Assembly (NCBI GenBank): GCA_001953115.1
Contig: LSSL01005539.1
Coordinates: 1-34,282, forward strand
DNA: 34,282 nucleotides
DNA from: Smittium mucronatum
Lineage: Eukaryota; Kickxellomycota; Harpellomycetes; Harpellales; Legeriomycetaceae
Direction: 5' to 3'
Part shown: positions 6,105 to 34,282 of the stretch, piece by piece
Numbering within the stretch: the first letter of the stretch is position 1
Layout: each line of letters begins with the position of its first letter
Translations under genes and position numbers: made by a program
Notes under the pieces: model-generated
What the model saw: the letters and a program-made list of their open reading frames with translations, nothing else
Database searches by the model: none
What the model was told of the DNA's origin: nothing

Positions 6105-6618
6105 GATAATTTTGAGTGCTTCATGATTCGTCTGAAGAATCATCCAATAATTTATTGTTAACATTTACCGCGTCAAATTGATCTTTTTCAAGATCTAATT
6201 CAGATTTTCGGTCATTAGAATACAAAAATTTTTCTAAAAATTTTCATTATTTATATTCTGCACTATTTTATTAAAAAATTCTGATCCCGGTTCACTTACC
6301 TAAATGCTTTCAGGAGATTCAAAATAAGGCATCTCAAAAAATTTCGTTGTGAAAACCCAGTTTAATTTTTGGTTTTTTTTTATAAATTTTATTTTAACTT
6401 CTCTTATAATTCACCCTAAAAATAACATTAACAGTTAATATATTCGATTTCTCCACATTTATTATTCGCCTTTTTTGTTTGATGATCCATCCATGTGTGA
6501 TTCTATCACCTATAATTACCCTTGTCATATAAATTGAGGCTAAAGCTACATTTAAACTTTCTATATTAATAAGGCTATATTTTAAAAATAAAAATATAAA
6601 ATATTTCCAATTATTCAA
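6105..6618 (-). pseudogene. Possible decayed coding relic with acidic C-terminus, family unknown
   Basis: Reading the - strand from 6618, one frame runs 74 codons to a stop at 6394 and contains a basic, non-AT-biased patch (GDRITHGWIIKQKRR). Beyond that stop, coding-like pieces continue in shifting frames: MPYFESPES, then SEPGSEFFNKIVQNIN, then a hydrophilic segment ending in LLDDSSDES just before a TGA. The residue composition, rich in Ser, Asp, Glu and Pro, is unlike random translations of the neighbouring sequence, where Asn, Ile, Lys and Phe dominate. The acidic tail resembles an ordinary protein C-terminus. I could not place it in a transposase or host family. It may be chance plus a short old gene fragment. 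Confidence 0.3.
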
Positions 6619-7370
6619 AAAATACTATTATTTATACTAATGAGTATTTAAAACGCTTTTTTTGATAAGTATTTTTTAAAAAAACAAACAAAATAAAAGA
6701 ATTAATAATATAAGATCCCATATAGTCCTTTTTTATAAATAAAAACTAAAAATTATGAATTATGCAAAATATATCATATTGTAAATAAATTTAATATCTA
6801 TTTCATAAAAAAATTATTTCCGATTAATGGATGTTTTAAATTAGAAACAATAAAAACTTTATATAAAGATAGGCAATTGAATATATTGAATAAAAACATT
6901 TAAAAATAAATTATTACAAGTTATAAGCAAATTTTTTTACTTATAAGTTGAATAAAAATTATTAATTAACCTGAAATCTTCCAAGATATTCAATAAAATT
7001 AAAAATTCTATTAAAATATTAGAATATATTGATTGAATTTTATTTCACCAAATTTTGTATAGAATTATTTAATTTATACTGTTGATATAACAAATACTTT
7101 TATTATGTTTACATAAAAAATGTATAACTCGTTATTTTTCTCAATTTTCCTTTATTTCCGAAAATTATTTAGTTCTAGTTCTAAAACCACCAATTGAAAT
7201 GAAATATATTTTATTTTGAAATATCTTCACGTTGAATAACTTACAATTTTCGGAAGCGGATTCTATATACAAGATAGGCTGGTAAAAATCTTAGCTTTGA
7301 AATTGTAGCTGTGCAGTCAATTATGAGGCAACGCTAAGCGCAATATTACTATCACACTTATTGTCCTTAC
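6619..7370. other. AT-rich spacer grading into the less AT-rich island
   Basis: No open frame of note. From about 7240 the G+C content rises. The stretch 7305-7370 contains a CAACGCTAAGCGC segment that may be a further, very diverged unit of the tandem array that follows. Confidence 0.5.
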
Positions 7371-7670
7371 CCAGCAGGTGTCATGATTGGGTAATTTTGC
7401 CTCGACTTTCACTGTGAATTTTACGACCCAATAATATAACGTGATGCAGAAAAACATGATAACGCTATCTCTGTATCTTTATTTCAACCAATAGCACAGC
7501 CATGATTTGTACAAACATACACAACGCTTTTTCTGCAGATTTATACCGCCCAGTAATATAGCTAGTGATACAAAAAACATGATAACGCCACTCTTGCACA
7601 TCTATTTTGACCAGTAACATAGCTACTGATTGGTACAAATATTCCCAACGCTTTTGCTGCGTATTTTTCC
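7371..7670 (+). repeat. Five diverged ~61-bp tandem repeats
   Basis: Units begin with CCA(G/A)(T/C)A at about 7371, 7428, 7488, 7550 and 7611, giving spacings of 57, 60, 62 and 61 bp. The last four share a TGAT-type segment, a run ending in ACAT or an equivalent, then AACGC(T/C), then a pyrimidine-rich stretch with TGCA/TGTA and a T-rich end; the first unit is the most diverged. Alternate units are more alike than adjacent ones (7428 with 7550, 7488 with 7611), implying a 122-bp higher-order unit. The array lies 3' of the two - strand ORFs at 7827-8601, beyond the hairpin at 7729-7762. Confidence 0.75.
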
Positions 7671-7728
7671 TTACTATTACTTACTCTACACTATAGCATT
7701 TATTCTACCCTAAACTATTCCTCCGTTT

Positions 7729-7762
7729 TTTATGTGTTTTGCGTCAGTGCAAAACACATAAA
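7729..7762 (-). terminator. Perfect 14-bp hairpin downstream of the - strand ORFs
   Basis: The arms TTTATGTGTTTTGC (7729-7742) and GCAAAACACATAAA (7749-7762) are perfect inverted complements around a six-base loop GTCAGT. The hairpin is 65 bp past the stop codon of the ORF at 7827-8132 in its transcriptional direction and just before the tandem repeats. A role in 3' end formation, RNA stability or as an element terminus is inferred from position only. The structure itself is certain. Confidence 0.6.
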
Positions 7763-7826
7763 TAGTCCCAGTTTTTCTAGTTTTTGATTTTTTTATCTAA
7801 CAACAATTGTCTTTTGTTCCCTAGTA

Positions 7827-8132
7827 TTAGTCTTGGTTAAATAAATTATACGCTCTCTTGTCAGCCAAAGTAACACTTGGCTTAAATATATCTTTGTTTT
7901 TAGTTAATACCTTTTGTCTTGCTTCTTCTCCCCTTTTTTTTGACAGCAGGAAACTTAGGGAATATATTGCTCCCTTACTCAGCCTATCTAAACTTTGCCC
8001 TTTGCTCCCTGAACTGACTTCATTAAGTGTTTGTACAGCCTCCAAGGTAGGAATAATATGCGAGAACCTTAACGGAGGTTTGGGATCGGAACTTAACGAA
8101 AGTCCCAGCAAAGAAGCTACAAGATCTTCCAT
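7827..8132 (-). CDS. Small soluble protein of unknown function (101 aa)
   Basis: The ORF runs from ATG at 8132-8130 to TAA at 7829-7827. The frame is open six codons further upstream, but only with non-ATG codons, so the ATG is preferred. The product starts MEDLVASLLGLSL and has a proline-containing turn (SDPKPPLRFSHIIP), then helix-prone sequence with a basic patch (KKRGEEARQK), and ends near AYNLFNQD. There is no signal peptide or membrane segment. Its balanced composition (Leu, Ser, Gly, Glu, Lys) contrasts sharply with the Asn/Ile/Phe/Lys noise translated from the rest of the window, which argues for real or recently lost coding. It lies 61 bp downstream of the membrane-protein frame at 8194-8601 on the same strand and is followed by a perfect hairpin. 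I do not recognise the family. It could be an accessory protein of an unknown element or a surviving exon of a longer gene. Confidence 0.5.
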   Translation of the reverse strand: MEDLVASLLGLSLSSDPKPPLRFSHIIPTLEAVQTLNEVSSGSKGQSLDRLSKGAIYSLSFLLSKKRGEEARQKVLTKNKDIFKPSVTLADKRAYNLFNQD

Positions 8133-8193
8133 AACTGGTTCTTTCCCCAAGTTGACTGATATTTATAAGTTTTAGCCTAGCACAGGTACTTCA

Positions 8194-8601
8194 TTAGAGA
8201 AGAATACCTAAGATCACCATCTCTATTTTCCACCAATCTCTCCAAGCGTCAACCTCAGGAGAAAATTTGTAAGAATAAGAACCGGACACGACCAACTCAT
8301 AGCTACACATAAACATGCCCATACCATTAAATAAGCTAATGACTTTACTAAGCAATAAAAACAAAATAGTGAAATTAATGAACCGGGCTAACTGGTAATT
8401 ATCCCAACCCACGAAAGTACTTAGAAAATATCTGCGACCAAATCAACCAAACAAAGGTAAAGCCAAAACGAATATTATAAAAATAGTTATATTTAAAATT
8501 AAAATAAAATCTAAATAAGCTATATTACTAAACCATAAAGTAAATAAAACAATTATCAAACTTTCCAAGACTTTCAGGCCATAAATGGAGCATAGCTTCA
8601 C
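8194..8601 (-). pseudogene. Multi-pass membrane protein frame interrupted by one in-frame TGA
   Basis: One - strand frame runs from a GTG at 8601, right after an in-frame TAG, to the stop at 8196-8194: 135 codons with a single TGA at 8445-8443 (codon 53). Hydrophobic segments lie at roughly residues 15-53 (probably two passes, with Asp31 between them) and 73-90. The C-terminal third is polar and aromatic and contains SPEVDAWRDWW. TGG is used for the other tryptophans and the TGA sits in the context LFG-stop-FGRR, so a TGG-to-TGA change is a natural reading. No in-frame ATG opens the frame. A different frame starts with ATG at 8593 and gives 21 codons (MLHLWPESLGKF...) before a stop, so the true N-terminus may be there with a frameshift or splice. 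The alternatives are decay, recoding, or a genetic code in which TGA is Trp. I do not recognise the family. Confidence 0.45.
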
Positions 8602-8657
8602 CTAGGATGAAAATTCTTAGTCTACCACATAAGTACTAAGATTGTGTATTGATTTAA

Positions 8658-8738
8658 GGGACTAAAAGATTTTATTAAGGGCAACTAATGGCTTGGGGGA
8701 CTAAGAAGTAAATATAAAGAGATAAGGAATTGGGGACT
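8658..8738 (-). repeat. Three AGTCCC leader motifs
   Basis: Read on the - strand, (T/A)AGTCCC occurs three times, at about 8738-8733, 8702-8696 and 8663-8658, about 35-40 bp apart between the TATA-like box at 8790-8783 and the first ORF. The neighbouring bases also partly agree, so this may be a degenerate short tandem repeat in a 5' leader. Copy A near 1009-1030 has a related CTAGTCC...CTAGTC pair. Confidence 0.45.
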
Positions 8739-8751
8739 TATGGATCTCTGA

Positions 8752-8838
8752 ATTTCACTATGTTGAAAAGATTTGGCTTTCCCTTTTATATCGAATTTCT
8801 GGTCTTATCCGATAGACAATTTTTTTCTCATTGGATAA
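8752..8838 (-). promoter_or_regulatory. Promoter-like repeat copy B with TATAAAAG box
   Basis: On the - strand the block reads TTATCCAATGAG (8838-8827), then TATCGGATAAGACCAG, then TATAAAAG at 8790-8783, then CTTTTCAACATAGTG near 8772-8758. It is the inverted relative of the block at 891-998. It lies about 190 bp upstream of the membrane-protein frame and reads towards it. A TATA-like box plus conservation in a second copy is the basis for calling it a promoter or element terminus. No transcript evidence is available. Confidence 0.5.
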
Positions 8839-8879
8839 GATAAGAAATTCGATACTTCAATCTTATAGGCTCATTAAAC

Positions 8880-10860
8880 GAAGTTATGAAATTTTTTTAA
8901 AATAATAATACTCTTATTGGAAAATAAATCAGTAACCCAATAAAATTACAGTCGAATCTCGAATCGATTTTGGATAAAGAAATAAAGAATAATGCTAAAA
9001 AATAACATCAAAATCGTGAAGATTCCAAATGTTGTTAACTGGAAACGAAATTACTATAGTTTGTGAATAAAATTTGGAAGTAATTTGTGCAAAACTTCAT
9101 TTGCGAAAAGTTTATTAAATAGATTTTTTTTCATTTCAAATTTCGTAGAACTCAAAAACTTTAAGAGTCATCATAAAGGTATAATATTTGATAATTTTAA
9201 TTTTAATAAAAATTCACATTGAAAACAAGTATTTTAGTGGATTTATGAAATTTTATTACTGAAAATCCTATTATATAAATAAAAGAATTAAAAAGGTATC
9301 CCTAGAATATTTATTATCAGAAATCAAAAATCCAATAAAAAAAATTAGATTATATATATTTGCGAATAAAAAATAAAAATGAAATAAATAGTTTAAAAAC
9401 TTAGTTAAAACCCCAATTCCATAAAAAAAATTTGCTTTAAAAAAAAAATTTTAGTTGATTTATTTTTAATTTATTTTATGTTAAAGCATAAAATACATTA
9501 AATATGTATTACTTATTAAATAATAATTTACTATTAAATGTTAAATCGATTATAGATACAGATACGAATGTTGCTCATTATATATATTTTTTAGTTTATA
9601 TAATCCCTTTTTTTTCTTAGACACGGTTTAATTGGGTTACTAAGCTTTTAGTCTGATATTTTGAATTTTTTTTTAGAAGATATAATCTTTAATAAAAATT
9701 TAAGTTAGAATTTTTATTTTTTTAATATTCAATTAAATAAATTTAACAATACTTTTAAAATTTACCTAAACATTTTTAATGAATAGCTTGTGGGTCAATA
9801 CTTACTCTGAAATTTCCATAATTTTAATTACCTCCTACTTGTATAAATTTTCATTTTTCTCATAATACTTTATTCACGGCTTTATTATTCAGAAAATTGG
9901 GGCTGTAATTATTTTATTCTACACATGGATATGTATATTTTTATAATCAATTATAAAATTTACTTATCCTATTTTATTTTTTTATTATTGAATTTTGAAA
10001 AATTATTATATTTAATCACGAAATTTTTCTAACTATAAACAATTATGGCTTTGAGTGGAATGAAATGTATCAAATTTCTTCCACAAATTAATTTAATTAT
10101 CCATTAATTCTTTGACAAATAAATTTAATAGAAATTTATAATTAAAATCAAATATTTGTAAGTTATATTTTTTATATTTATGACTATGAATTATAAAATA
10201 TTTATTTATTTAATAAGAATTTTTTTTTTTTTACTATTAATGGCTATTAGGCTAATGCTATACTTCAATTAGCTATAATTGTAAATTTTGAAAGTTTCTA
10301 TAGCTTTATTATCAATAAAAAAATTAATATTCAAATAAAAAAACTAAAGTCGAAAACCAAATTAAAAATTAGTTTAAAATTAAAATTAATTTAATGAATT
10401 GAATTGAAGTATTTTAAATTATCAAATTTTATCTATAAAACAATCAAAATTATTTTTACCAATACAAATTTAACAAAAGAATTTATTTAGTGATAGATTA
10501 TTTCTCATTATGTATATTATAAACCATTTTATCAATATCAGGATAAACGTTAAAATATTGGTTATCTAGTCGATTTTTAGCAATACGAGATACATTAGCT
10601 TATTAATTATTTGATATTATAATTATCGGATTAATAGTTAAGAAAAAAAATATTTAATTAACATAACGGTATCATAAACATAATTTTAAGTATATGAATT
10701 GAATTTTTTTAATTCTAGTTCATTTTTTTCTATTTTTTTGATAAATAAATCGTTTAAAATGATTTTAGATAAATAAAAATTATCGATTTAGGTTAAATTC
10801 ATGAAATTATACAATTAGATAAATTTTAAATCAAATAAATAATAAACTAAAAGTGAAATT
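8880..10860. other. AT-rich gene-free region
   Basis: No convincing ORF or repeat. Bases 8930-9120 are slightly less AT-rich (with AATCTCGAATCG and AACTGGAAACG) but no frame there stays open beyond about 25 codons. Confidence 0.6.
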
Positions 10861-11137
10861 GTGCATTTGAAAGTGTTAGAGGCCTAAAATTACATAAAAT
10901 TTCAAGAAAAACAAAATATTTCCAACTATTTAAAATCTTTCAAAAGGCGCTATTATAATTTTCCATAAGCCTAATGGCTATTTATAATCTTTAAGTTCAA
11001 TTTTTTTTTAAATAAATATATCTTGTTGAAATATTGTATCTATTTGAAAATGGAGCCTATTTTCAAAAAATATGAATTTTTCAATAAAAAGCTTTTTTTC
11101 AAAATAAGTTCTACTATTCAAATTATCAAACTAAAAT
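10861..11137 (+). repeat. Left inverted arm of Harbinger-like element
   Basis: It pairs with the reverse complement of 12838-13105. The best-conserved block is ATGGAGCCTATTTTCAAAAA (from about 11050) with the following ATGAATTTTTCAATAAAAA. Further matches are GTGTTAGAGG near the outer end, ACTATTTAAAATCTTTCAAA and CCTAATGGCTA. Confidence 0.75.
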
Positions 11138-11588
11138 ACTTTATAGTGCTCCAATAATGGTTTTTAAATACGGATCAAAAGTTTTAAAATGAAATTTGAG
11201 AATAATTTGAAATGAATTGAGCTATTGTGTTTTTTTCTCGCTTTCATTGATAGAGTAACAAGTTGGAAGCATATGTAAAGTTTATGTATCTTTAGGAAGC
11301 ACTGAAAGCTTAGTTTTTAATAATTACAGCAAAAAAACAAAAATGTATATTTAATATATCTCACAAGCGGGTTTAAAACCTATTTATATCTTCACAAGAT
11401 ATTTGTATTATTCTCTTCCTAATTAAAATAATTTAAAACTAATATTACTCATTTTTTTGAAAAATAATTTTATTTTTAAAAAATAATAAATGTTTGAATC
11501 ATTTAATAGTTATATTTTTACTTTATTTGGATAAAATAAAAATTTTAAAAAGTATTAAATTAATTATATAAGACATAAGTAAATACTA

Positions 11589-12190: not shown

Positions 12191-12837
12191 TTAGAATAAT
12201 ATAATTATCGGACAACTTTTTTTTATTGTATTTGTTATTATTTGTATTATTCCCTATGCAGAAGCATCACTTATACCATAACTTGATTTATAGCAGAAAT
12301 TTATTTACATTTTTTCATATATGATAAAAAAAAACAACAAATTATCTTTTAGTGACAGCTTTGATTTTTTTTCATTTGGTACTTATCATTTTTATTAAAT
12401 CATCAATTAATAATAGAAAAATCATAATATTAAAAACTGCAATCTTTCTAAGTAACTGAATTCATTTGGCTTAATCGATCAATATTTTAATCATTATTTT
12501 GGTATTCATCGTTTATTAAAACTTCCGTGTGGTGATTAAGGCGAAGGTAAAATTAATTAACCGCAGCCTGATCCAAAAAATTTTGAAAACAGTTTTCTTC
12601 CATTATATTTTTTATAAAAAAGGTAAGGTATTTTTCTGATCTATATATATTAGAAAAATGAAAAAACTGGAAATTTATACTTTAGTTGCTAAAAAGATAA
12701 ATTTAAGTTCTAATTTAAAACTATCAAATTTTTATTTTGATATAAATATGAAATATATAATAAACGTATATTTTCGCTAATTGAAGCTTATTTCGATAAA
12801 TTAAATATTGATGTATCGTAAATTTTATATAGTTGTT

Positions 12838-13105
12838 TGGTTTGATGATTTGAATAAATGAATAATTTTGAAAAAAACATTTTTTATTGAAAAATTCATA
12901 TTTTTTGAAAATAGGCTCCATTATCAAATGGATACAAATTTTCCAAAAAAAACACTTTTATTTAAAAAAAAACCAAAAATATGGATTATAATTAGCCATT
13001 AGGTTTATTAAAAATTTTAATATCGCCTTTTAAAAGATTTTAAATAGTTATAAATTTTTTTTTCTTGTAATATTATGTAATTTATGCCTCCAACACGTTT
13101 AAATG
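12838..13105 (-). repeat. Right inverted arm of Harbinger-like element
   Basis: Reverse-complement partner of 10861-11137. The 67-codon frame at 12724-12927 on the - strand lies mostly in this arm and its first residues translate the conserved arm block, so I do not treat it as a gene. Confidence 0.75.
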
Positions 13106-13974
13106 TATCATTTTATACTGTTGGCCTAAATTATACTTAAAAAATCCCTATAAAAAATCATTTTTAATATTAAAATGCTAATTTTATTATGTTTACGTCA
13201 TTATTTTATAATTATTTAATAATTATTTTATAATTATTTTAAAAATTATTACGAAATTTGATCAAGTTAATTTATTTACATAGTTTTGAATTTCTGGATA
13301 AATATTTTTTCATAGATCATGTATAGATGTAAATTATAAAATATCTATCCAATAAACATCAATTTTCGGTGTTATATTTAATAAATAATTTGATTTTTAT
13401 ACACCCTTTCACGTTCAAGTTAAATAAATTTAAACAAGCTTTATTAGAAAATCCAATAAAGAATAAAGAATAGCCATCAGATCTAAAATAATATAAATTT
13501 GGATTTGAAAATTTCAAAACCAATATAAAAGGAAAATTTCTATCTTATTAATTTTTCAATAAAATTTTATGAAACGGTTAAAAAAACATAAAAAATATTT
13601 AAGCCCTGAAATCATTTTCCTGAGCTTTATATTTCAGCTATAAAATTTTTTTGTGTACTCAATAATTTTTTTTACATTAAAGGTAAATAATTCATATGAA
13701 TCGGGTGGCCTACTAAACATAAGTAAAATGTCATTCCGGGTCTAGATCTTTTATTCTGCAAATTATTGTAATTTTTTTTTAATTTCAGTCTTTAAAGAAA
13801 TTCAAGATTTATCTACCGGATTGAGCATTTTTTAATAGGGCCACAGATACAAAATTTTAACTTCCTAAAAAAATTATATTTGTTCAGCAGTTTTTCTTTG
13901 GCAAAGACCATTTTCCTATAACATTACTATACTCGATTTTATTTTCCCTTATTTGAAGTTTTGCGAATCAAATC

Positions 13975-29800: not shown

Positions 29801-30325
29801 ATTTTTACAATTAAAAAAACTCAAAAATATTAAATTTTTGTTCTCAAGTATGTTCTAAATATTTCGGGTTATTAATTTTTTTAGTAAGTTATTTATAAAT
29901 TATACAAATTCAAATCTTATAAATTTATTTTTATAAGTTTATATCAAGATAAAAATATTTTGGCATTATGAACGTTAAGAAATGACCCACCGGTAATGAA
30001 GGAGTTAAAAATAATGAATTTAGAGTTTTTTATACGAAAACGTAAATCAAATTAAATAATACTAAATAAAAAATAGTGATTTATAAAATCTTCGAATTTT
30101 GTATAGGAATTTCGTTTTTTTTATATTTCTGCTTAATTATCTATGCAGATAATTTTAACCCCGACTTTTAATCTTCCTTCGGGTTCCCTATGTATTATTA
30201 TTAAAGAAAAATAAGTAGTTTTTATAAACCTTTAGATACTTTTTAAAAGGGCAACAAATCCATGCGTTATGTAAAGAATTAATACTTCATTATAATTTTG
30301 ATATATCATTAAAAAAAGTGATAAG
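26820..30325. other. AT-rich gene-free region
   Basis: No convincing coding frame. The first 100 bases may extend the transposase relic (a patch reading YLASKKGFGKKK in a shifted frame near 26845-26885). A GC-richer patch at 29269-29282 (GCGGGGTGCGC) stands alone. Confidence 0.55.
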
Positions 30326-30835
30326 TTGCAAAAATGATCAGATTTTTTTTAATATTTGAAAAAGTGATCAAATAATAAAAGTATTACCAGCTATAGCATA
30401 AAAAATTTCGAAGATTTTTTTAGTAAAATCAATTTGACCTTTCTAAACTGAAAAAAGAAAAAAAATATGGTTTTATAATCCATAGAATTCTTAATCTGAA
30501 ATTTTTTTACTTTTATAGGCTGATTTCTATTTATTTTTTTACTTTATTTTGACACCTATGTATGGGGTAAAAAGCCATTTTTTAGCTTTAAAAGCAAATT
30601 AAGAAAAACAAAAAATTTTAAACTTGTTCATTTCTGTCTTTTGATAGATAAAAACTGACGATTACCCCAAAACTAAAAATCTAAACCGATTCTATAACCC
30701 GAATTTCTGCATCATCTAACCTATTTCCAAAGCGATTTGCAGCTGTTTTAATAAAGAAAAAAAAGTGGCTCAATAAAAATCTTGAAAAAATAAAAGTTAT
30801 AAAAAGTTATTATTAGTTAGCTATTTTTGAAGATT

Positions 30836-31105
30836 TTAAGTTTCCGTGATATTCAACCTTTTAAACTTAAATTGATTTATTATTATTATTATTATTATTA
30901 TTGGGGGTCCAGATTTTAGACTGAAGATCAGAAAGACGAATTTCTCATACCAAGAAAAAATAATTTCGGCATTCGTTTCACTGATATCTCGCTTATAAAA
31001 ATAGCCCTTTTTGGATAAACATGGAATAATATTTACTGATACCACTGAAAAGAAACTTTTTAAGGTATATGTTATTTTCAAAATCTTTTTTTTTTCTATT
31101 TTCAA
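30836..31105 (-). other. Arm-borne ORF, left copy (89 codons)
   Basis: The frame gives a peptide identical over about 84 residues to the one in the right arm. It includes VVSVNIIPCLSKKGYFYKRD and ISETNAEIIFSWYEKF, then a run of Ile encoded by an ATT/AAT microsatellite. The non-repetitive part has coding-like composition. Nearby in the arm another frame reads AANRFGNRLDDAEIRVIES, also coding-like. I do not recognise either piece. They may be captured gene fragments or old element coding sequence. Confidence 0.35.
30877..30902 (+). repeat. TTA microsatellite in left arm
   Basis: About 26 bases of TTA repeat. The right arm has the inverse tract of about the same length at 33551-33576, so the two copies have not drifted in repeat number. 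Confidence 0.9.
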
Positions 31106-31499
31106 TACAAACCAAAATATTCTTCAAATTATTCTTATTAATACATAGATGGCACAAATACATTAATGATAATTTATTGATTATATCAAGATTGTGTTAC
31201 CAACTTAAAAATTTCTTAAATTCAAATGATTTCGAAAATAAACCTTTTTAAAAACAAGGATGAAGCGTAGGAGTTTCTTATTAAACAAAACATCGACAAT
31301 TTTAGTATTTATAAATTGATCTACAGTTCGAATATTTGAATTTTGGAAAAGTTTTATCTTTAAGATTGTGATTTTAATTATAATTTTCATTTAAGAATAG
31401 ACGGTTTTTTATTTTTTTCCAGAAATTAAAATAATGTTTGTTACCGTATGGGTCCTTGATTTACTAGAAAATTTGTCAAAAAGTTTTCAAAAAATTTAA

Positions 31500-32890: not shown

Positions 32891-33290
32891 TATAGTTCAT
32901 TCACTCTCAAAATTTCAAATATACTAATTATCTATTTCTTAAACTCATTTAAATTGAACTCTAATGAATTTTAAAAAGAAAACAAAAAATAATATTTTTT
33001 TTTATACATTTTATCACAAATATTTAATCACAGAGGCCGAATTTTTTTAAAAAAATCAACATAAAAGTTTAATAATCCCATAATTTATGGTTATTAAGTT
33101 GCCATATTAATTTTTGAGTCCAGTTTTAAATTTTTTTGGAAATGATGTTTAAGTGTAAAAATATTACTTAGTAAGTTAGAAAGCTGTATAAGCATGTTTG
33201 TAATTTATTATAATAAAATACTGTAACGCTAATCTTTTCATATCGTTCATATCAGAAATTCATCTTTAACTGAGCCTTCGTTTTCCATTA

Positions 33291-33617
33291 ATGTATTTGT
33301 GCCATCTATGTATTAATAAGAATAATTTGAAGAATATTTTGGTTTGTATTGAAAATAGAAAAAAAAAGATTTTGAAAATAACATATACCTTAAAAAGTTT
33401 CTTTTCAGTGGTATCAGTAAATATTATTCCATGTTTATCCAAAAAGGGCTATTTTTATAAGCGAGATATCAGTGAAACGAATGCCGAAATTATTTTTTCT
33501 TGGTATGAGAAATTCGTCTTTCTGATCTTCAGTCTAAAATCTGGACCCCCAATAATAATAATAATAATAATAATAAATCAATTTAAGTTTAAAAGGTTGA
33601 ATATCACGGAAACTTAA
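33291..33617 (+). other. Arm-borne ORF, right copy (108 codons)
   Basis: Same reading frame as the left-arm copy but 19 codons longer at its start, because the 9-A run here keeps the frame that the 10-base run breaks in the left arm. The extra N-terminal residues include a Cys/His-containing start (YLCHLCINKN). Function unknown. It may be only a chance frame in a repeat. Confidence 0.35.
33551..33576 (+). repeat. AAT microsatellite in right arm
   Basis: About 26 bases of AAT repeat, inverse partner of 30877-30902. Confidence 0.9.
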
Positions 33618-34282
33618 AATCTTCAAAAATAGCTAACTAATAATAACTTTTTATAACTTTTATTTTTTCAAGATTTTTATTGAGCCACTTTTTTTTCTTT
33701 ATTAAAACAGCTGCAAATCGCTTTGGAAATAGGTTAGATGATGCAGAAATTCGGGTTATAGAATCGGTTTAGATTTTTAGTTTTGGGGTAATCGTCAGTT
33801 TTTATCTATCAAAAGACAGAAATGAACAAGTTTAAAATTTTTTGTTTTTCTTAATTTGCTTTTAAAGCTAAAAAATGGCTTTTTACCCCATACATAGGTG
33901 TCAAAATAAAGTAAAAAAATAAATAGAAATCAGCCTATAAAAGTAAAAAAATTTCAGATTAAGAATTCTATGGATTATAAACCCACATTTTTTTTCTTTT
34001 TTCAGTTTAGAAAAGTTAAATTGATTTTACTAAAAAAATCTTCGAAATTTTTTATGCTATAGCTGGTAATACTTTTATTATTTGATCACCTTTTCAAACA
34101 TTAAAAAAAATCTGATCATTTTTGCAAATTAATTTAAAAAAATAAACAAACAAAAGCTTTAATCTCCGTTGAATATAAATTCGTATAAAAAAAAAAAGAG
34201 AAAATATTATTCTTTATAAATTTAAATTTATAGAGATAGTATTAGGTTACCAACGCAATTTAGGCCTTTGAATGAAATAAAG

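Follow-up and report, generated by a model that had tools for sequence, protein, structure and literature searches.

A GC-richer island in a contig of Smittium mucronatum is a nest of three mobile-element remnants

Related elements and the make-up of the island

In Ty1 of Saccharomyces cerevisiae, gag begins within the 5' LTR, for a few codons only. Retrozymes and other non-autonomous LTR elements are short, produce 4-bp target-site duplications and are moved in trans by gypsy machinery. Duplications of 4 bp have also been described for non-chromoviral gypsy elements (PMC6875170), and the LTRs of TARE1 of tomato are described as paired, with TA...CA ends (PMC5659011). For Schizosaccharomyces octosporus, the published account is that no full-length elements are left (PMC10085805).

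The locus analysed here belongs to Smittium mucronatum, a member of the Harpellales, which are described as insect-gut commensals (PMC5954228). The window, that is, the whole stretch of 34,282 bp under analysis, is contig C2389 of a genome that was searched as 73.8 Mb in 2957 contigs. As the published assembly is given as 102.35 Mb with 26.05% GC (PMC5954228), about 28 Mb lies outside the searched sequence. Three elements were recognised in the island and are referred to as LTR-A, LTR-B and element C. LTR-A and LTR-B resemble Ty3/gypsy elements in having relatives with paired LTRs around gag-pol domains, with weak integrase matches, and LTR-A also in its TG...CA ends and 5-bp duplications; set against that group nothing about them is unusual, both being decayed copies. 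Element C resembles the solo-LTR families described from S. octosporus in its many LTR-like copies for which no full-length element was found, but differs from them in a frame of ~165 codons that is open through the 3' end and in having recent copies. It shares terminal TA and CA with TARE1 as published, whereas an LTR pair was not found for element C. A gag start within the LTR would be common to Ty1 and element C if the start in element C is indeed gag-like; in element C it extends over ~165 codons, and an interior was not found. With retrozymes element C shares its short length and 4-bp duplications, and mobilisation in trans is weighed below as a rival reading; unlike them, it codes for protein, had no ribozyme at the five loci searched and has no LTR pair.

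The repeat-derived stretch covers positions 7248-8879 and is a nest of three mobile-element remnants, not one gene unit. The initial annotation had described a GC-richer island with an ordered set of signals, and the signals themselves were confirmed, apart from the number of array units. The GC content was 0.337 in LTR-A, 0.356 in element C and 0.32 in LTR-B, against 0.214 in the rest of the window. On the minus strand, three AGTCCC motifs (8733-8738, 8697-8702 and 8658-8663), a hydrophobic frame of 82 codons (8194-8442) and a soluble frame of 111 codons, 101 counted from its ATG (7827-8162), were all present. Their reading as one ordered unit failed, the pieces differing in copy sets, orientations and ends; so did that of a recently acquired gene pair, as the promoter, ORFs, hairpin and array stem from three different repeats. 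The suggestion of mobile DNA was right in that every part has copies elsewhere and the copies of element C share both ends, and wrong in assuming a single small element. There is a match between part of the island and Ty3/gypsy, a transposon group already known, and such an outcome had been named in advance as speaking against the proposal. No sign of an extrachromosomal element was noticed in these analyses.

Searching the genome with the complete island had been suggested as a way to find copies with shared ends. Such copies were found for element C, but the search (best 40 of 350 candidates) returned two separate match sets, switching near 7945, and not one unit. Among the same best 40 of 350 candidates, the left part of the island alone matched five places at 87-90%, and the right part gave long matches at 71-77% identity. 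The search also returned a single fragment of 86 bases (85%), and the hairpin matched itself over short stretches on the reverse strand. The 3' stretch beyond the insertion directly follows the right part, without the insertion, in 28 of the 29 other loci; in the remaining one, L031, the sequence at this position is a string of N. Because the right part is continuous in those 28 loci, the left part, LTR-A, is an insertion, and it is almost certainly nested inside element C.

LTR-A, LTR-B and other repeats of the window

LTR-A occupies 567 bp (7379-7945, plus strand) and is the solo LTR of a Ty3/gypsy element in sense orientation on the plus strand. Its ends are TGTCA...TGACA, and the target-site duplication GCAGG lies on its left (7374-7378) and right (7946-7950). 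The five other genome copies at 87-90% were accompanied by a partial copy on C2026 (89%) and by more distant relatives at 66-86%. Two of the five copies lie on C2079 (at 47987 and 53417), on the same strand and 5.4 kb apart, and are 93% alike (532/570 aligned positions). Between them, Retrotrans_gag (2e-9), RVT_1 (2.4e-16) and RT_RNaseH_2 (2.9e-36) were identified, together with rve (7.8e-5) and Integrase_H2C2 (4.4e-4), both under the Pfam cut-off. A perfect 5-bp duplication was present at three of the five LTR-A insertions examined (the window, C1705 and C96) and absent at the copy on C518 and at the C2079 element. Near the C518 copy (L055), minus-strand frames resembled, by eye, the endonuclease of a non-LTR retrotransposon; a LINE may therefore surround this copy.

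The tandem array and the hairpin both lie in LTR-A, on the plus strand. The array had been counted as five units; its unit of ~61 bp was confirmed, but it holds only ~3.8 units of ~61.5 bp (7427-7660). The repeat search gave a period of 123 with 1.9 copies, three copies were in register, and the autocorrelation peaked at 61 and at 123-124. The hairpin (7729-7762) has the perfect 14-bp stem that had been reported (7729-7742/7749-7762) and a 6-nt loop; none of 500 mononucleotide shuffles of the island contained a perfect 14-bp hairpin. The stem is perfect in the window and in each of the two LTRs on C2079, whereas five other copies have a shorter one. The loop (7743-7748) reads GTCAGT in the window and ACTGAC, the reverse complement, in L006, L011, L012 and L013. 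The stem is thus kept while the loop is reversed, as if the loop had flipped.

LTR-B (8633-8879, minus strand; terminal bases provisional) is what is left of an old LTR, now truncated, from another Ty3/gypsy family that has also decayed. It matched two same-strand sequences on C982, 5.5 kb apart, which form 289-bp direct repeats that are 79% alike. On the minus strand between these repeats, the gag-related DUF4939 (1.1e-6) and SH3_Tf2-1 (3.9e-7) were found, and rve at 0.004, below the cut-off. The TATA-like site of the island (TATAAAA, 8784-8790, minus strand) lies inside LTR-B and is common to the C982 copies. A promoter had been proposed here; the site exists, but it belongs to a different repeat from the ORFs. 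A further LTR-B-like copy was observed at 775-1099, on the opposite strand, at 65-69% identity to the C982 LTRs.

LTR-B lacks ~25 bases where element C starts, at GTAC (8633-8636), the point at which LTR-B homology begins and element C ends, and GTAC is a possible target-site duplication. Its partner was not found: at the opposite end of element C in the window, the bases are, by position, ATTG. Since these are not GTAC, we can only infer that element C inserted into LTR-B. At L072 (C52, ~6544-6750), the 3' end of an element C copy abuts GTACTAAG of an LTR-B copy. With the junctions in the window and on C52, element C and LTR-B meet at the same GTAC site twice, in opposite orientations, and this site in LTR-B is possibly a preferred one.

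Two inverted repeats were observed elsewhere in the window. The larger, of 847 bp (30322-31168 and 33286-34131), has arms that are 99% identical with 2.1 kb between them, a layout resembling that of a DNA transposon with long terminal inverted repeats; no Pfam family matched pieces of the sequence separating the arms, and a flanking duplication was not obvious by eye. The other, of ~470 bp (10687-11145 and 12826-13282), has arms that are 73% identical and 1.7 kb apart. An Rfam scan of the window returned nothing at the gathering level. Many frames were open when read with the ciliate code (table 6), which was ruled out on the ground that the contig is fungal. Eight window pieces read with this table gave no Pfam match above the cut-off, one containing a weak match to PhzC-PhzF (0.0034, below the cut-off).

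Ends, target sites and reading frame of element C

In the window, element C runs on the minus strand from 8632 to 7248 and measures 813 bp excluding LTR-A. Its 5' part (7951-8632), delimited by its copies and ends, comprises the leader and the start of a frame-shifted ORF, and its 3' part beyond the LTR-A insertion (7248-7378) is the stretch found to be continuous in 28 of 29 loci. The family ends are TAAAGTGGTAGGACGCG and CCGCTTCCGACA; they are sharp and of the form TA...CA. A 28-base pattern of the 5' end had 102 matches with up to 3 mismatches, against none in a reversed control, and a shorter 5'-end pattern had 189 with up to 2 mismatches, against 2 in the control. For the 3'-end pattern, there were 289 matches against 60 in the control. 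A protein search of the genome with the element C ORF gave at least 150 places (best 150 of 699 candidates).

To examine target-site duplications, 25 copies were paired from 100 + 100 listed ends. A duplication of exactly 4 bp was present in 17 of the 25 pairs, compared with a mean of 3.7 and a maximum of 9 in 2000 shuffles, and duplications of 3 or 5 bases were present in none. Of three extra pairs whose ends are separated by sequence with an N run, two showed a 4-bp match (C52 and C976, not C377). The middle two bases were TA in 13 of the 17 duplications. Helitrons leave no duplication and LINE-type insertion gives variable ones; on the fixed 4-bp duplication, both were set aside as explanations of element C. 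The fixed duplication would also suit a DNA-transposon derivative that lacks terminal inverted repeats and is mobilised, with 4-bp staggers, by some DDE transposase as yet unknown. The ends TAAAGTGG and CCGACA are not inverted repeats of each other, as judged by eye in 29 aligned copies, which counts against a DNA transposon, and the CA end and the stop-less frame described below suit an LTR better; such an origin is judged quite improbable.

Beyond the ends, the flanks were largely unrelated. For the 3' flanks (100 of the 289 matches), 5 of 4950 comparisons reached 80% identity; four of these were identical pairs, for which contig duplication is a possible reason. For the 5' flanks (100 of the 189 matches), 10 of 4950 comparisons did so, four as identical pairs and the rest AT-rich. 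As no larger flank-sharing group appeared in these samples, no common interior of element C is visible.

The start TAAAGAGGTAGGACGCGCCTTTTCGTCC of young copies was found on eight contigs, with a one-base variant on C2154, and six of these nine contigs terminate within the element. Near-identical repeats break contigs in short-read assemblies. In the leader of these young copies, between one and three hairpin-like repeats of the GGAGGTTGGGATTTGTTACCCAACTCTCC type were seen by eye. One of them, L061, has element C at 313-1107 (795 bp) with GTAT on both sides, and its dS to L068 is 0.10, marking both as recent copies. The RNA of L061:313-1133, including 26 flank bases, folds better than 20 shuffles (z -4.0). 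The Rfam ribozyme search of five element C loci found none, the single match up to E 1 being a tRNA in the L065 flank.

The better copies contain one frame of ~165 codons, from MGMVMRNHELVESG to YQSNWYRESASD, with no stop through the 3' end. In the codon alignment, from which L031 was left out for its run of N and L035 because it duplicates L034, variability was lowest at codon position 2 (0.19; positions 1 and 3, 0.24 and 0.26). The median pairwise dN/dS was 0.59 over 435 non-independent pairs, and 0.85 for pairs that include the window copy. A stop in the reference frame occurred in 24 of the 30 aligned rows. The six stop-free rows include L047 with a net indel, L061 with a net 18-base deletion and L068, which is cut by a contig end; the clean stop-free copies are L028, L032 and L041.

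Three protein searches, in the first of which the best 7995 candidates were scored, gave 114, 116 and 47 relatives, together at least 125 entries, all from S. mucronatum. The expression for the C-terminus matched 64 of 124 family proteins, some at an earlier site, and proteins running past the end of element C carry differing tails. The longest family protein had 262 aa (in one search admitting ~144-458 aa); as the searches are restricted to proteins of 0.55-1.75 times the length of the query, they would pass over a long polyprotein. In the genome search, the longest open frame was of 370 aa, on C319, with two adjacent matching stretches (best 150 of 699 candidates). Five proteins marked partial (P0084, P0088, P0092, P0094 and P0118; 84-86 aa) share the same end point in element C, as if contigs break at one repeat site. 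Pfam returned no family for 6 members of the protein family and, for 51 members, scattered matches only (E 0.04-0.2), none significant; PDB gave no sequence match, and the AlphaFold model was poor (mean pLDDT 49.9, pTM 0.18).

One family protein, AYI68_g7172 (P0096), is annotated in the island, where three pieces of it equal the window letter for letter. The gene model joins 8322-8209 to 8156-7827 on the minus strand. Its first piece (8209-8322) is element C ORF; its second (7827-8156) follows element C to ~7946 and then antisense LTR-A to the stop. The two frames of the initial annotation are thereby accounted for: the hydrophobic frame comes from the upstream part of element C, where the ORF is frame-shifted, and the 101-aa ORF is chimeric, passing from element C into antisense LTR-A at ~7946. 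That the island holds real host genes, from a lineage-specific protein family unrelated to transposons, would agree with the annotation of AYI68_g7172 and with the number of family entries in this species. Against this stand copies that end sharply at the DNA level, with 4-bp duplications and in flanks unrelated to each other, the stops in 24 of the 30 aligned copies, and a gene model that ends within antisense LTR-A and leaves out part of element C, restoring the frame. The host-gene explanation is therefore scarcely credible, and AYI68_g7172 is an annotation of decayed mobile DNA.

Nature and origin of element C

The fixed 4-bp duplications, the TA...CA ends and the frame open at the 3' end suit an LTR that contains the beginning of a gag-like protein, and a stop-less frame with differing tails is the expected residue of an LTR that starts gag. 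The low variability of codon position 2 is counted on the same side, and there are published precedents for the ends (PMC5659011), for 4-bp duplications (PMC6875170) and for the lack of full-length elements (PMC10085805). Element C is thus best read as a solo LTR with the start of a gag-like protein inside it, to which a probability of roughly 0.6 is given. Across the 73.8 Mb searched, two LTRs with an internal coding region, a primer site or a polypurine tract were not found, and the protein had no match to a gag or capsid family in Pfam or among PDB sequences. With no interior found, element C is termed LTR-like and is filed under no family. Same-strand neighbours on C377 and C52 were considered as LTR pairs and rejected, no gag-pol being recognisable between them. 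The C377 copies are only 72% alike (the younger is represented by L061), and in neither case did a frame of 75 codons or more lying between the copies (C377 has one, C52 two) have a Pfam match above the cut-off.

The missing interior can also be taken at face value. Element C could be a stand-alone short element that never had one, inserted in trans by a gypsy integrase and taking its protein tails from the landing sites. None of the flank sets, proteins and neighbour pairs that were examined revealed an interior, recent copies such as L061 and L068 are still bare, and the tails beyond the element end do vary between proteins. A coding frame without its own stop would, however, be odd in a complete element, and full-length copies could be missing from the data, given the ~28 Mb outside the search and the six of nine young-copy contigs that end in the element. 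We regard a stand-alone element as possible, if rather unlikely. Its boldest form would be a new, bare LTR-like unit of ~0.8 kb, recently active with 4-bp duplications, whose interior was never present and whose orphan protein of ~165 aa takes its tail from the landing site, each insertion creating a new chimeric protein; in this full form the proposal is more doubtful still.

On the solo-LTR reading of element C, the history of the island is as follows. LTR-B, an old LTR that is now truncated, goes back to retrotransposition. Element C lies against it at the GTAC site; a retroviral-type integrase working with a 4-bp stagger would have inserted element C. Within element C would be the promoter, the leader and the first ~165 codons of the gag-like protein, whose frame would once have run on into an internal region that is now missing, either removed by LTR-LTR recombination or absent from the searched assembly. 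The later insertion of LTR-A into element C duplicated GCAGG, and a solo LTR is what is left of it. Retrotransposition followed by LTR-LTR recombination is the standard mechanism for such a remnant. Three observations, besides the missing interior and the lack of a gag match, speak against this account: the ATTG in place of GTAC, the lack of 5-bp duplications at the C518 copy and the C2079 pair of LTR-A, and the 60 control matches of the 3'-end pattern.

These results remove a candidate unknown gene pair. They also identify at least 125 annotated host-protein entries of S. mucronatum as mobile DNA, beside the 8,712 gene models of the published table (PMC5954228). The same table gives a repeat ratio of 2.94%, which unrecognised families like element C would raise (PMC5954228). 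If element C is truly without an interior, an element no larger than an LTR would be spreading with a stop-less protein frame, and every copy would be a natural test of which tails the protein tolerates.
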